From assembly GCA_950295325.1 (NCBI GenBank), contig OX485809.1, forward strand, positions 3,472,001-3,536,000: a stretch of DNA of 64,000 nucleotides, given 5' to 3'. Made by a program: the position numbers and the translations under genes. Every line of letters starts with the position of its first letter. The first letter of the stretch is position 1. Below, one piece after another: positions 1,191 through 51,781 of this stretch. The notes beneath the pieces were generated by a model. It did not search any database. It was not told the DNA's origin and worked only from the letters and a program-made list of their open reading frames with translations. Source of the DNA: Polytrichum commune (taxonomy: Eukaryota; Streptophyta; Polytrichopsida; Polytrichales; Polytrichaceae).

Positions 1191-4100
1191 TAGGCGTATG
1201 TGTGGCATGATGGGGTTGTCTCTGATGATATCCCAACAAAAGAAAGCTCATTGAGCCGGTTGGGATGTAAAAGATTAGTTTGGGCATGTGTTGTTGCACT
1301 TGTGCAAATGAATGAATGTCCCATGTCATCTTGCACCTTTCTAGCTTGACTTGTTAAGGTTGAATATTTGAAAATGGTGAATGACCACTGCTAATGCACT
1401 ACACTAGGGTAGAATGATTCTTGTGTGGACCCAAAAATGGCTAATTGTAAAAGTGGTGGGCCAACAAGGATGTAGTGATTGGTTGGATAGGCCATGTTTC
1501 ACACCACTTGGGGTCACTTTTGGGTGTCATTGAGTTAACTGATTTTTGCGTATTCATGTGTAAAGTAGGATATTTCGACGCTCAATTTGGTAAACTCTAC
1601 TATACAAAGACGAGGTTTGACTTACTTGCCTCTTTGAGAAAATGTAACTAATAATTTACATGGAATAAAATTATGAAACAACTGGCATTCGCCATCATTT
1701 CCTCTACTCCCATCTTCGAAGAATATTGCACAAATTTCAGGCCACTCTTTTTGGCCAAATTAGCTTATTTTCACAATTTTTCATATTTTGCCTTACACAT
1801 GTGAATATGGGAATCGGTGTCTCAGACCATCCCCACATTGTTTGTTCCATTTGTTGCTGTCAAAAGTCGACCATTTTGGAACTTTGAAATAGTGATTGTT
1901 ATAATGTCCACATGTCCCGCATTGAATATAGAGTAACCTTGTATATTCAACACTAAATAGGTTCATAAGTGTGACCATTTGAATAGTTTTGATTTGCAGT
2001 TCCATGTGATTGAGAAAGGCACTTCCATTTATTGACATGTGGAGACATGTGGTGTTTCATTTTGACAAAATCTATTTCTATTGAGCATAGCATTCTACAT
2101 CGATTGAGACCACTTTGAATCTTGCATCAAAACTACATCTAATATGGGTATCCTACATCCTTGTATAATTAGGTTCTATAAGGTAGAAGTGCCCAACTCG
2201 ATCATGGATCTAAGCATAACACGTACTTTTGGTCTCTTTACGGGCTGCCACAATTCCTTAATCAATTATCATGTAATTAGTTTAGTCTTGTTAGAATTCG
2301 TTATTAGCAAGTTGGTATGGAGTTCAATTATTATAGGTGATAAACATGTTGGACACAAATTAGTCCAAAATTTAAGAAAAGTGGCACATGGCACTTTCCT
2401 ATAAGTGAGAACCTGACAAAATCCTATGTGTGACCTCCAAAAATTAGCATTTCCGCATCAAAATGCCAAAGTGGGTTTGAAGTGATCACCTGCAATACCT
2501 TCATAATGTGGCTCCCTACTGTTTGATTTAAATGGTACATGGTCAGCTTGGAAACTATTGCGGGTATGTCATGCAAGTGGTTGTCACAGATCTCAAGCAA
2601 TCGCATACACACATGATGTCAACATTATTATGTTCACAAAGTTGGAAGATACAAATGAGTGGTAGTGGCCAGTGGTGATTTTTCACCAGGTCCCTGACAT
2701 GTTCATTAAAAAAAAAACATTTCCAATGGACGGGTTCTTAAAAAATGAACTGGTTTTTGGACATGTCAAATTCACTTTGGATGGGTTCTAAAAATAAAAA
2801 TAAAAATAGATAATTTTTTCCAAAAAGAAAAAATGGTACAAGTATTAGTTACATTATGTCATATATGACATGTGAATATAAGCATAATGCAATCAAACCA
2901 CTAATACCCAATCAAAATATCAATCTTGAAGTGCTTGATTCACCTGCATACATTAATTAATCAATCACAAAATTTAAAACCTTTTTAACATAATGTCAAA
3001 GATTATAATTGAAAGTAAACTTAGCAATTGAATAAGAATTAGTATATATAAACATGTTCAAAAATTTAAAAATAAAGAGCTACCTTACCCTTCTAAGAAG
3101 TGGATGAATTCTCCTATCCTTCATGTTTCTCCAAACAAGCATCATTGCATTCCAATTGATGTTTTCAACTGGAATATTTGCACATGAAATGCCCATCAAA
3201 GCATCCAAAGTCTCTAACTTCAAACTAGTACGTAGATGACTTTTGATTAGGTTTTGTCTAGAAAAACCCCTCTTGTGGAGGGAATGTGGGTGGTGATGGA
3301 CGGGCGATGACGGGTGATGGAAACACCTTGAGGATAGAGTGTGCGGAAAGAAATGGGAGATTGAAGGACAAGAAATAAAAAGAAATGATGGTGGCAGAGG
3401 AAATTAGAATGGGGTGTACTGGAAAGATGAGAATCGACAGCAAAAGACAAATAATTGACAGGCATTGAAGGCATAATTTGTCAAGATCCTATTGTCTCCA
3501 AGTGCGACCAGTCACATGTCAACATCTTTCGTTTTTTTTGTTTTTTGTTTTTAAAAATTGTTACCAACATTGTAAGAGACTTATTTATACCTCTTGCGGG
3601 ACAAGTATTTTCATTTTCAAACCGGTTTTGGGACGTGTTGTTTTTTCTTTAACCTTTCTATGGACAGGCTGGTTTAGAAATTATCAGTTTTGGGATGGGT
3701 TGCAATTTCTTTTACCTTTCAATTCAAGGTTTTTGGATGTGGATGGGCAAAAACTTTGTGAAAAATCAGCCCTGGTAGTGGCACAAGTCACTTTGTGCAC
3801 AACTTGTGTCCACTTGACTACTAATAAAGAGCATGCAATCACATCATCACACTAAAAAAGTTCCAGGTTAGGGAAGGGAAGAAGTGCTCACAGTGTCCAT
3901 CCTAGGCACATCTACCTTATGAAATGCAGTATAACAAGAAAAATTTACTTACTCACAGAAATGCAAGAAATTCAATATCCCTAAGTATCCACCTGAACGA
4001 TTAAAAATCTATTGCTCTATCTACTACTTAGGCATCACAAAGGACGCTACTTATTTGCTGTGCTTTGAAAATAGAACATGCATACCATAATGCTACAAAG

Positions 4101-17817: not shown

Positions 17818-18149
17818 CTCTCGCAACAACTCATGTAAGTAAGTTATGTACTACATATGGAGTATACAAAGATGAGTTTGGTGGGACGACAAAAGTGTTA
17901 CTGATGATCTGGTGATGCCTATCATCGAGTTTGACTTGTCGATTAGACTTCCAGATTATTTTGAAACTATCAGTACTGCACCTGTGAAGTATTCTCCCCA
18001 AGAGTTGCAACCTTTCAATCCTCACAAAAAGTAGAAACCCTAGCAATATGTTTGCAATTTCTTAGACCTTGCAACTGAGGAATTCCTCCCCTCTGAACAT
18101 GCTAGAAACACCGTTTGTGTGAAATTCGGCATTTGATGGAGGAACCACA

Positions 18150-18527
18150 ATGGCAGAAAAGAGGGCAGCGATCGTGGTGGCCAAATGGCTGAAGGAGCAA
18201 GTGGGCAAGGACCGGACCCAAACCAATGACCCAGAACAAGCCGAGGAGCTTCGTGGCCGTGCAGAGCGATTTTTTTCGCACTTGTTTGTCGATTTCCCGT
18301 CATTGATGAGGATTATGCTTGTGAAAAACTTGCCCCTGCGGTGTTTGATCTGCTCTAGGAGACCGCCGTTCGGGAGCCTCGGGGAACTCAAAAGGCACGC
18401 GCACGATCGCAAGAGGACGCGAAGAAAGGCTGAGCATTTGGGTTACTATGATGCTCTCACCCGTGCCCGGCTACCGAGGTACAGGACGGAGAGTAGTAGC
18501 GACTCTGGCTCGGATGAATCTGATTGA
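18150..18527 (+). CDS. Small basic protein with a C2-HxH motif, 125 residues
   Basis: A single open exon starting ATG (MAEKRAAIVVAKWLKEQ). GC content and codon use are clearly higher than in the flanks, which argues for a real gene. The N-terminal half looks helical. Residues C65-x2-C68 followed by H83-x-H85 (CLICSRRPPFGSLGELKRHA) could form a small zinc-binding site. A basic stretch KRHAHDRKRTRRK follows, and the C-terminus is acidic and serine-rich (TESSSDSGSDESD). Nuclear location is plausible from the basic run. I do not recognise the family. Overlapping frames on the other strand are less protein-like. It lies 330 bp downstream of the plus-strand gene's stop. Confidence 0.65.
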   Translation: MAEKRAAIVVAKWLKEQVGKDRTQTNDPEQAEELRGRAERFFSHLFVDFPSLMRIMLVKNLPLRCLICSRRPPFGSLGELKRHAHDRKRTRRKAEHLGYYDALTRARLPRYRTESSSDSGSDESD

Positions 18528-25515: not shown

Positions 25516-28103
25516 TTAGTTGTCACCCAGAAGCGTGGATAGAACAAGCTGTTGTACGAATTTCGCACGTAGCTTTGCTTGTTTATGTTTCTCTTCGCGC
25601 TCTTCGGCTGTTAATGAGGGGTCGACACTGTTCAGCAACCACCAACAAGCACTTGTAAATACAAACACATCCGCACAGCAAAGTACAAATGCATACGATC
25701 CAAGTCACATCTCGCCCTATCAGATTGCATGGTTTAAACATGCACAACTTCAAGTATTAATCTGACAAGAACCAGACACAAGAAAGTCATGAAACAGTGC
25801 CTTTATTTAATTGACCACAGCCATGCTGATTCTAATTAGTAGATTGTTCCTGTGAGGAAGACATAAATGGCACCAAGGTGTCACAAAAGGAAGAGGATAG
25901 TTTCTGTGCAACATGCAACAATAGAGTTATCCTTTGACTCTATGGAGCTTCGAAGGTCCCCTTTCATTTTCCATTGGATGTTTTACATACAATATGAATA
26001 ATTTCTTTCCACTTGTGATGCAACTCAGAGGTAATTTTTGAGTTTGAAAGAAGACCAACCTACTTCAGTCATTGAGAGCCAAACTCATTTAGCACCTCTG
26101 CGGATGCAAGAATAGTTTGACCCTTGCTGAACCAATATACAACGTTCTTCAATCAAATTTCCATACTACCTCCAAGGAAGGTTGACCACATGCCATGTTC
26201 AATTATAGGACACCTCTAATTTAGTATAACTCCTAGCAGATAAAAGAGGGCCAGAAAACAGTTTTAAGGAGCAACTTGCCTTGGCTTTGACTGTTGACTT
26301 AGCGAGGATAGTTTCGATGGTGGTTCCTCATTAATAGCACTAGGTTTGGGAGGATCTTCAGCCTCAGTTATAGGAACATTGTACACCAAGGTGGAGAGTA
26401 GAGGATCAGTGGCATGAGACAAGCCCGACAGGCCCGACGAGCGAGATGTACCCCCTAGAAGGGCCTGCAAGTGCGCCTCCCGAAGTTCCTTCCCAAGGAG
26501 TGAAAGTGTTGCATTTGATGGAACACCAGCTCTCCTGAACCTCCTCCGACGCTGCATGTGAACTGTTGTTAAGGGTCCCTGCAGATAATAATTGATATAT
26601 CTCTATCCTTACATGGAACATTCAACACACTTACTGAAAATCTTTACATGACCTAGTAGGTAGATGTCTTTTCCATTCACTCTCTCCACTTACTCAACAC
26701 AATGATACAGGAACAGTAGATAAAGAACAACTTCAAATACTAGCAAGTTGTCAAAAGGATATCTTAAATAAGTGACCATGCTGCAATGAAATGTGTCCAA
26801 CCATGTCCTTTGGAATCTTCGCAGCACAAACAGGGCACATCTGTTCCCACATGTCACAATTAGATGTGCAGAGATAACCTAATTTGCAGTCAGCCACACC
26901 CTACATGTAGACAATCGGCACAAGAAACCACTCCAAGAGTAAACAGTCAAAAAAGTATATTAATAAAACAACATCTCTAACATAGGCTGACTATTGTGGG
27001 ATATTCAAAATGCCCTAATGTATAAAACGAAATGGATTGCCAGATTAATTACAGTTGCAAACTAGCCTTACCCTACAAGAACATCTGCAAATTCAGTTTA
27101 AAAAAATGCAGAATTGAAATCAGGTTTACAAACTTACAGCAGCTTTAGATTCAAAACAATGTTCATCTTCAAGATGTGAGCAGAGAGCAGTGACATCAAA
27201 TTCCTCGTAGCAATAAGGGCATGAAAATTCAGGTCGCAAATCCTCATCACCATCCACATCATCTAGGTTAATTTGATGACGATCTGCAAATCAAGGTACA
27301 ATGCCTATTAATTATGATTCTTAACACTGACGTGCTACACTACCTGCTAAGACACTGTTATAAAAAGAAAAAAGTTTGAATTCAATAGAGATCTCTAGGA
27401 AACTCCCATTGTTGCAACATTGCCTTGCAAACTCCATCTCTTAAAAGATGGTGTAATGCACTGACAAAAACCCGTAGATACCTCGTGCAGATTTTTGAAT
27501 GGTGAAGAATATTGGCACTGTCTAACTGCTCTTTCTTCCAAATCTAGAGAACCGCTGAGATAGCAGACAAAGTAGTCCATAAAGATGTAGAGTAACTAGA
27601 TGTAAGTTGCATCACTGTGGGCCAAACCCATACCAACACCAAAAAGGAGATAGCAATTGTAAACTTGCGACTCACAAACAGCATATCAAGAGGTCACCTT
27701 CATCATGAACAGCATCGAAAACTATCATTGCAACCTAATTAAATCAAGAGACCCAAACATCTAGACAAAATGAAGACAATCACCTTACACATTGAAGAAA
27801 ACAATGGAATCCGAGTCCTAAATTCTTTAACCTGCAACCTCGCCTTCTCGTTCAATCGACAAACATACCCACAAAGCAAGTAACTCTACAAATTTCCCAG
27901 GCACTAATCCAAATGACTAAGTCACAGCTGATCATCTTCACAGGAAGATGAAAAAAAGGAAAACATTGAAATAAAGGAGGCTCTCCATGTATATAGTTCA
28001 GCAGAAGAGTTGAGAGGAACAAACCTAGAAGGGACTGAGAAGGCTGAAGTGTGTGGTGGCGCTTTGAGGTTGACATCCGCGCAGTCCACAAGTCCCCATC
28101 CAT
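25516..28103 (-). CDS. Di19: Di19-type drought-induced zinc-finger protein, complete, five exons
   Basis: Coding exons, 5' to 3' on the minus strand, are 28103-28025, 27283-27138, 26840-26763, 26557-26280 and 25627-25516. They total 693 nt (230 residues plus TAA) and every junction keeps frame. The protein starts MDGDLWTARMSTSKRHH, a typical Di19 N-terminus. Two C2H2 fingers follow: C48-x2-C51 with H63-x4-H68 (zf-Di19 domain), and C77-x2-C80-x10-H91-x4-H96. A basic nuclear-localisation stretch QRRRRFRR lies at 103-110. A Di19_C domain runs to the end and finishes VQQLVLSTLLGDN. Length is normal for the family (about 200-240). Known Di19 proteins are nuclear, bind DNA and act in drought, salt and ABA responses; some are phosphorylated beside the NLS by calcium-dependent kinases. 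No key residue is missing and I see no frameshift. The start ATG is the only one that gives the conserved N-terminus. UTRs are not resolved. Confidence 0.95.
25628..26279 (-). other. GC-AG intron (intron 4 of Di19)
   Basis: The donor reads CCAAG/GCAAGT, the strong consensus used by GC-AG introns. The acceptor is TGAACAG before TGTCGACCC. Splicing gives QQSKPSVDPSLTAEE, which restores the conserved C-terminal Di19 block. Reading through instead gives a stop five codons later. Length is 652 nt, phase 2. Confidence 0.88.
26558..26762 (-). other. U12-type AT-AC intron (intron 3 of Di19)
   Basis: Read on the minus strand the intron begins ATATCCTTTT directly after the AAG lysine codon of exon 3, an exact match to the U12 AT-AC 5' consensus. 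It ends TTCAC directly before ATGCAGCGT of exon 4. A branch-site match CCCTTAAC (consensus TCCTTAAC) lies at 26568-26575, about 10-12 nt from the 3' end, the short spacing typical of minor-spliceosome introns. No GT-AG pair nearby would restore HLFK-MQRRRR. Length is 205 nt, phase 0. Confidence 0.9.
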
Positions 28104-50389: not shown

Positions 50390-51085
50390 TCCCTGGGCCG
50401 GCAGTTAGCCACCGAGCTTCTTCCTTGCTGTTCAGCCACAAGCTAACTCTCTGCTGTCTAGCCATTGAACTTCCCCCTTGATGTTCGTCCCCGAGCTCAG
50501 CTCAATGTTGTGCGGCCCCTGAGCTAACTCTCTGCTGTCTAGCCACCGAGCTCCTCCTTGTTGTTTGTCCCCGAGCTCCGCTCAATTCTGTTAGGCCATC
50601 GAACTAACTCTTTGCTGGTCGGCCCCGAGCTCAACTCATTGCTGGCTAGCCACCGAGCTCCCGTTCTTTTCTGTTCGGCCACGAGCTCAGCTAAATGTTG
50701 TCTAGCCACTGAGTTCCCCCCTTGTTGTTCGTCCCCGAGCTCAGCTCAATGTTGTGCGGCCCCTGAGCCAACTCTCTGCTGTTTAGCCACCGAGCTCCTC
50801 CTTGTTGTTCGTCCCCGAGCTCAGCTCAATTCTGTTAGGCCATTGAACTAACTCTTTGCTAGTCAGCCCCGAGCTCAACTCATTGCTGGCTAGCCACCGA
50901 GCTTCCTCTTTTCTGTTCGGCCACGAGCTCAACTCAATGTTGTCTAGCCACTGAGCTTCCCCCTTGCTGTTCGTCCCCGAGCTCAGCTCAATTATGTTAG
51001 GCCATCGAACTAACTCTTTGCTGGTCGGCCCCGAGCTCAGCTCATTGCTGGCTAGCCACCAAGCTCCCGCTCTTCGGAGCCTGGG
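50390..51085. repeat. Higher-order satellite: about 245-bp units made of about 30-bp subunits
   Basis: The subunit resembles CCGAGCTCAGCTCAATGTTG then TCTAGCCAC with variation. Higher-order units start at GTTCGTCCCCGAGCTCAGCT near 50483, 50727 and 50972. The GC content is far above the flanks and GAGCTC (a palindrome) occurs in nearly every subunit. Both strands remain open for long stretches (plus 50558-50851, minus 51145-50783), giving repeats such as ASNELSSGPTSKELVRWPN, but this follows from the repeat length being near a multiple of three. Confidence 0.85.
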
Positions 51086-51781
51086 AACCGAGCTTCCTCC
51101 TTCGCCTTCTCGTTCTGCAACTCTAACCGGAACCACCACACACAAAAACCAACAACTTTTTTCTCTCTTTTTCCCCGCATTTCTCCACCCCCTTAATTAG
51201 GAATCCGAACCAGGCTTATCCATAAGTCACCCCTTCAACCCTTAAACCAACACTCTAAGGCCCTAATGCGAACATTAAACCCGAACCCCTTGTGGGCAAG
51301 CTCCACTCCCAATTCGGACACCTAACCCGGCCTTAAGCCCAAGCTCACATCCCCTCTCCCAATAACAAAAGTACTAACTACCATTACTCTAACTAAAACT
51401 AATTAACACTAACCCTCTCCCAACACACAAATGACGTAAATCACTTGTTAACCCAAAAACACACTAAACCCAAGGGTTACACTCTTTTTAATTTTGAGTT
51501 ATCAATCACAATGAACAAAAATCAAACCCCTAATAACTTTTGAAATTAACCACACATGTGGGCACCATTTTGGGCTCACATCAACCATAAAAGTGGAGGT
51601 AACAATGTTGGAAACCTATTATAGCTTTTTGTTCTTATTTTTTGAGTAATTTTGATATAAAAAATAGTAGCATTGATTGCCTTGAGCTAGTCTAGCAAGA
51701 TGCAATTGCGATGAATTAATCATAAACTTATAGGGGGTCAGTATCTACTAGAAGCCTTAACATGGTTGTCGCGAATCCTAA

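Follow-up and report, generated by a model that had tools for sequence, protein, structure and literature searches.

A gene of the DI19 family in Polytrichum commune raises the question of whether its third intron, which begins with AT and ends with AC, is a genuine intron of the minor spliceosome, how old it is, and whether its removal is regulated. The gene lies on the minus strand at positions 25516-28103 of the window (the whole stretch of 64,000 nucleotides that was analysed) and has five exons encoding a product of 230 residues. Its parts are listed in the order of transcription.

28025..28103, minus strand: exon 1, with the ATG at 28103
27284..28024, minus strand: intron 1, GT-AG, phase 1, 741 nt
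27138..27283, minus strand: exon 2, with the first zinc finger, ending in ESKAA
26841..27137, minus strand: intron 2, GT-AG, phase 0, 297 nt, immediately 5' of MCPVC
26763..26840, minus strand: exon 3, with the second zinc finger, MCPVC...HLFK
26558..26762, minus strand: intron 3, U12-type AT-AC, phase 0, 205 nt, missing from the near-identical database protein P0001
26753..26762, minus strand: U12-type 5' splice site ATATCCTTTT, in agreement with the consensus RTATCCTTT
26751..26753, minus strand: TGA stop reached if the intron is retained (HLFK-ISF-stop)
26568..26575, minus strand: U12-type branch site CCCTTAAC, with the branch A at 26569 and 11 nt to exon 4
26558..26562, minus strand: 3' splice site TTCAC
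26280..26557, minus strand: exon 4, with the MQRRRR basic stretch and the start of Di19_C
25628..26279, minus strand: intron 4, GC-AG (AAG/GCAAGT), phase 2, 652 nt, with SKPSVDP across the join in P0001
25516..25627, minus strand: exon 5 and stop, with a weak C-terminal alignment to the C-terminal segment of KCMF1

The four introns total 1,895 nt, and an AT-AC and a GC-AG intron occur together in this one five-exon gene. In the 230-residue protein, Pfam assigned zf-Di19 to residues 45-97 (84.5 bits against a cut-off of 27.5) and Di19_C to residues 119-226 (102.5 bits against a cut-off of 29). The placement of the intron between the second zinc finger and the basic stretch, as proposed in the sequence-only reading, agrees with these limits of 97 and 119. 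These two Di19 domains were the only ones found by Pfam, and the N-terminal ZZ domain was absent from the protein; the gene was therefore filed as DI19, related to KCMF1, and not as KCMF1 itself. In a tree of 26 rows the window protein pairs with P0001, and both fall into a well-supported set of nine rows together with Physcomitrium and Ceratodon, while the next set outward adds four more rows, two of which are Sphagnum. Judged from this protein, the window is moss DNA.

Intron 3 extends on the minus strand from 26762 (ATATCCTTTT) to 26558 (...CCCTTAACAACAGTTCAC) and is 65% A+T. Its removal fuses HLFK (K101) with MQRRRR (M102) in phase 0. The same AT-AC intron with donor, branch site and TTCAC end had been read from the sequence at first sight, and its coordinates and signals were recovered exactly, as was the precise join of HLFK to MQRRRR, on which the gene model and P0001 agree. 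Compared with TTCCTTRAY, the branch context ACCCTTAAC contains CCTTAAC exactly and is missing the two leading T. In the 64-kb window RTATCCTTT occurred 2 times, both strands counted, compared with an average of 2.6 across 30 simulated sequences; loose pairs of donor and branch motif numbered 7, with 5.5 expected. Motif counts alone were dropped as proof, as they were in excess neither here nor in the animal locus described below. The other RTATCCTTT (47439) was dropped as a U12 donor because it lies inside an (AT)n run, or microsatellite. The position of the motifs is a different matter: a donor at the single codon boundary that homology demands has a probability of about 1.5e-5, and CCTTRAY within 7 positions near the 3' end of the intron one of about 2e-3. 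It is the placement of donor and branch motif, and not the motif itself, that exceeds chance. No Rfam family reached its gathering score in the window.

Removal of the intron is seen in a near-identical gene. P0001 has 221 residues, is 99% identical over 96% of the query, derives from a contig of 1,072 bp and contains HLFKMQRRRR. As the introns of the gene sum to 1,895 nt, this contig must be spliced and, by its length, appears to be a transcript. The first nine residues are missing from P0001, and two residues of its exon 5 part deviate from the window, so that it comes from a very near relative or strain and may not be the same gene. Two further near copies of the window gene were observed, which belong either to a sister species or to a second copy of the gene: P0125 has AAISL after exon 2, where a GT donor has apparently changed to AT, and P0140 has HLFQ-ISFDNLL, where the U12 intron is apparently one base shorter.

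Database proteins that continue into the intron, whether through retention or through a faulty gene model, expose its first codons and thereby its donor. The homologues examined were the best 120 of 352 in one search and all 22 and all 108 in two others, and most of the 120 listed had the normal join. Among 245 fetched relatives, 132 showed the normal join and 20 read past the donor. Each of these 20 begins with Ile-Ser and none with Val-Ser (ISF in 16, ISL in 2, ISC and ISS in 1 each). As ATATCC in phase 0 encodes Ile-Ser and GTATCC encodes Val-Ser, an Ile-Ser start points to an AT donor. The comparison of this junction across the Di19 genes of other plants, suggested beforehand as a check, came out in favour of an AT donor. 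The donor readers include Sphagnum compactum, the conifer Cryptomeria and the monocot Canna, as well as, with several dicots among them, Tetracentron, Macleaya, Vitis, Lupinus, Rhododendron, Ilex, Drosera, Rumex, Phlomoides and Trapa. Two of these rows are from Vitis, and P0237 and P0239 are almost the same, so that the 20 are not all independent. This protein-level approach also over-samples AT introns, because gene finders mishandle them. Val-Ser was not found at this intron in any fetched relative; the three Val-Ser matches were all N-terminal.

These counts combine two passes. In the first, 131 of the 245 proteins had a normal join, 89 lacked the motif and 25 fell into neither class. Among these 25, 19 read past the donor, P0163, P0165, P0199, P0202 and P0211 were left out because their pattern lies elsewhere, and P0162 was left out because two residues are missing at its join. 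When the 89 were searched again with a looser pattern, the second finger was recovered in 6, namely P0033 with a normal join, P0157 (ISF) as a donor reader, and P0150, P0151, P0153 and P0161 as deletion models. In the remaining 83, many of which are exon-2 frames, the second finger was not seen intact. P0099 (ISRRR) was scored as normal and is ambiguous.

Intron 3 of the moss gene is a genuine and probably ancestral minor intron whose removal is likely constitutive. The identification is known in kind, as earlier papers describe U12 introns in the Di19 genes of Arabidopsis. What is new is the depth: a likely identity with an intron of animal KCMF1 lifts the case above the ordinary. The best overall explanation, an old U12-type AT-AC intron of the KCMF1/DI19 family that is constitutively removed by the minor spliceosome, is held with good confidence, tempered slightly by the weak branch site of the animal locus and the weak C-terminal match. 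From the signals we infer that U11 would recognize ATATCCTTTT and U12 would recognize CCCTTAAC, with the minor spliceosome excising the intron. Removal would put the basic stretch and the part with the UBR4/BIG-binding pin in frame behind the double zinc-finger domain. The intron would already have existed before plants and animals diverged, and its removal would be constitutive. Where it stays unspliced, the frame would end after Ile-Ser-Phe, and the RNA may be degraded, be held in the nucleus or give a zinc-finger-only protein unable to join BIG.

The consequences of retention can be read from the frame. The sequence-only reading had held that splicing of this intron decides whether the C-terminal domain is made, and this is borne out, as the retained form reads HLFK-ISF-stop and gives a product of 104 residues without the basic stretch and Di19_C. 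The description of the complete protein as a nuclear-targeted factor is probably too narrow: the basic stretch is present, but DI19 was reported to assemble with UBR4/BIG (PMC7618180). Since that report places the UBR4/BIG-binding pin at the C-terminus, the sequence behind the intron comprises the basic stretch and the docking pin, and retention would remove both the basic patch and the pin. By coordinates, the retention stop lies 471 nt upstream of the last exon junction, which leaves the retained RNA open to nonsense-mediated decay. A substantial share of Arabidopsis transcripts with retained introns is reported not to trigger nonsense-mediated decay (PMC3591102). If splicing were rate-limiting here, defects of the minor spliceosome would affect BIG-dependent protein degradation.

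Such a dependence could also be used as a regulated switch, the idea put forward in the sequence-only reading, in which inefficient minor splicing sets the amount of complete DI19 under stress or in certain tissues. This would suit the immediate stop on retention and the branch context with an extra C, presumably of the same kind as the extra C that went with very poor splicing of Physcomitrium patens CBP20 in tobacco and that occurs in 4 of the 124 U12 introns of P. patens (PMC5932401). A relatively high basal retention has been described for AT-AN minor introns (PMC8280824), and Di19 was listed among 53 alternatively spliced genes conserved across grasses, with the intron not specified (PMC4578763). 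Reports from Arabidopsis disagree on Di19 splicing. Di19 was named among the genes whose U12 splicing requires 31K (PMC3422263), and splicing of Di19-2, a gene with a U12 intron, was defective in u11-48k plants (PMC4892727), whereas PMC5853960 found Di19-2 splicing “not significantly altered” in a 31k knockdown and no rescue by Di19-2 expression. The intron-encoded tails also speak against a switch. The reading of P0140 extends 33 residues into the intron and that of the window stops after three; the tails beyond ISF differ among species and no common features were seen, so that no truncated product looks selected. A function of the tail as a peptide was dropped for the same unlikeness. A regulated switch is accordingly considered unlikely, and constitutive removal is retained as the preferred reading.

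The age of the intron depends on the kinship of DI19 with KCMF1. DI19 was named as the plant KCMF1, a cofactor of the UBR4/BIG ligase, with a cryo-EM complex with UBR4/BIG, in PMC7618180, which describes strong homology between DI19 and KCMF1 in the C-terminal pin, an orthology that was called elusive until 2025, and a DI19 without the ZZ domain. When the window protein was searched against solved structures with phmmer, plant DI19 (9qt9) came first, followed by KCMF1 through its zinc-finger part. Query residues 11-98 aligned with KCMF1 41-138 (whole-sequence E 1.1e-7, best stretch i-Evalue 1.9e-6), and residues 194-228 aligned with KCMF1 296-330 at 7.9 bits with an i-Evalue of about 20, which is not significant alone.

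In animals, the third of the six introns of fly KCMF1 (CG11984) is listed as an AT-AC U12 intron, with a U12 intron in human as well (PMC2831892, Table 2), and the text of that paper states that human counterparts keep the same intron subtype. The subtype is that of the DI19 intron. An animal sequence for comparison, L001, was found by a contig scan with a 98-residue KCMF1 fragment at the end of JANQML010000005.1, a contig of a Desulfobacula bin. By eye, from sequence and GC, positions 1-3980 of L001 appear to be animal DNA with a KCMF1 gene and the sequence after about 3,980 appears bacterial; the contig is therefore a chimera, in which both exons and the intron precede the switch to bacterial sequence. 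A second candidate, L002, was discarded as a bacterial CPYC protein whose match, at 39% identity, covers a short segment. No relatives turned up when viral_contigs was scanned with P0001, with alignment A1 or with the KCMF1 fragment, or when genome_contigs was scanned with alignment A1.

The L001 exon at 3103-3210 consists of whole codons and encodes VCPVC...RDIL, reading VCPVCAALPGGDPNHVTDDFAAHLTLEHRAPSRDIL and then ATATCCTTTACATTG. The intron begins with the donor ATATCCTTT, is 667 nt long, carries a branch-like TTCTTTAAC with 12 nt to the end, closes with AC and is in phase 0. On the 3' side of the 667 nt, TTCTTTAACTGACTTACTAC is followed by the exon DEPGAARHVRRLFHP, and the joined piece aligns with solved KCMF1 109-168 across the join. 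The branch-like TTCTTTAAC is one base off the consensus, and an exact CCTTRAY was absent from the end of the L001 intron. RTATCCTTT without its last base, RTATCCTT, occurs once in the 8,192 bases of L001 and was present in 71 of 200 shuffles. When L001 was aligned with 16 DI19 proteins, the two AT-AC junctions lay two columns apart, both in phase 0, in a gapped region where the junction follows the last finger His by 5 residues in DI19 and by 8 in L001. The exon start agrees as well: the residue ahead of CPVC opens the exon in DI19 and presumably also in L001, where no preceding exon was found in the stretch examined. As in DI19, the L001 intron lies directly past the second zinc finger; it differs in length, with 667 nt against 205 nt in the moss, and animal KCMF1 has the ZZ domain that DI19 lacks.

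From this agreement we infer that the AT-AC introns of DI19 and animal KCMF1 are probably one intron that predates the split of plants and animals. The match in position was judged on L001; fly and human KCMF1 were compared by intron subtype. An independent gain of AT-AC U12 introns near the same domain border in both lineages appears improbable, even though the junctions, separated by two alignment columns, fall on a domain border where the alignment has gaps, and a single animal locus stands behind the comparison. Both phase and subtype are the same; U12-type introns are given as fewer than 1% of introns (PMC3591102), and AT-AC introns as 26% of the U12-type introns of Arabidopsis (PMC7367187) or as 4.8% (quoted in PMC5932401). 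Positions of U12 introns were reported as more strongly conserved between human and Arabidopsis, with 20 U12 positions in common that independent gains cannot explain (P<0.0001; PMC2426677).

If DI19 and KCMF1 carry one intron, KCMF1 would be expected to have an AT-AC intron in phase 0 a few codons from HLTLEHRAPRDL. The shared intron would then be a rare genomic marker and independent evidence for the orthology of DI19 and KCMF1, and it would lengthen, by one named case, the short list of U12 positions that animals and plants are known to have in common. No statement equating the two introns was found in the literature searched; supplementary gene lists (e.g., of PMC2426677) were outside the search, and a prior mention is possible. 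The full reading, in which one AT-AC phase-0 intron serves as an orthology marker and also places the docking pin of the substrate-receptor subunit of UBR4/BIG, a ligase of protein quality control, under shared control of the minor spliceosome in both kingdoms, is held as tentative and rather doubtful.

Besides animal KCMF1, two known cases resemble the moss intron. All plant CBP20 genes studied have an AT-AC U12 intron between the nucleic-acid-binding core and the NLS tail (PMC5932401). CBP20 is a different gene, and its animal U12 introns are reported to lie elsewhere; in KCMF1 (L001) and DI19, by contrast, the introns sit at nearly the same place. Arabidopsis Di19-2 belongs to the same family and has a U12-type intron that depends on minor-spliceosome proteins (PMC4892727, PMC3422263); it was compared here by its U12 type.

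The junction is also where public gene models break. DI19 models with intron residues or deletions at this point are P0012, P0016, P0024, P0045, P0057, P0076, P0162 and P0190, and the organisms concerned are Sphagnum, Tetracentron, Macleaya, Linum and Adiantum. Three Sphagnum models (P0012, P0016 and P0045) have ...ECVALTA(A/V)Y ahead of MQRRRR, which, judged from the codons, would fit an intron ending in (G)CCTTAACTGC.GC.TAC, i.e., a U12 branch site followed by AC. In P0024 (Sphagnum tenellum) KIGTDM runs straight to RRRR, and in P0190 (the fern Adiantum) TKDV does so. These broken models are plausibly due to gene finders that disallow AT-AC introns. A cryptic GT-AG intron in place of the AT-AC intron, e.g., from GT 26801 to AG 26552 with KDM joined to RRRR in frame, is highly improbable, because although 17 such combinations preserve the downstream frame and joins of that kind stand in the models P0024 (KIGTDM-RRRR) and P0190 (TKDV-RRRR), the moss proteins P0001-P0004 keep the full VGHISLQHGHLFKMQ stretch and the KDM join would presumably delete the His part of the second finger.

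Elsewhere in the window, 50406-51059 holds a tandem array whose periods are 244, 108 and 27 bases and which gives a repetitive open frame at 50783-51196 on the minus strand, for which no Pfam match was found. An open frame of 134 residues at 18123-18527 on the plus strand likewise had no Pfam match; it contains MAEKRAAIVVAKWLKEQ... and a CxxC...H pattern and may be coding.
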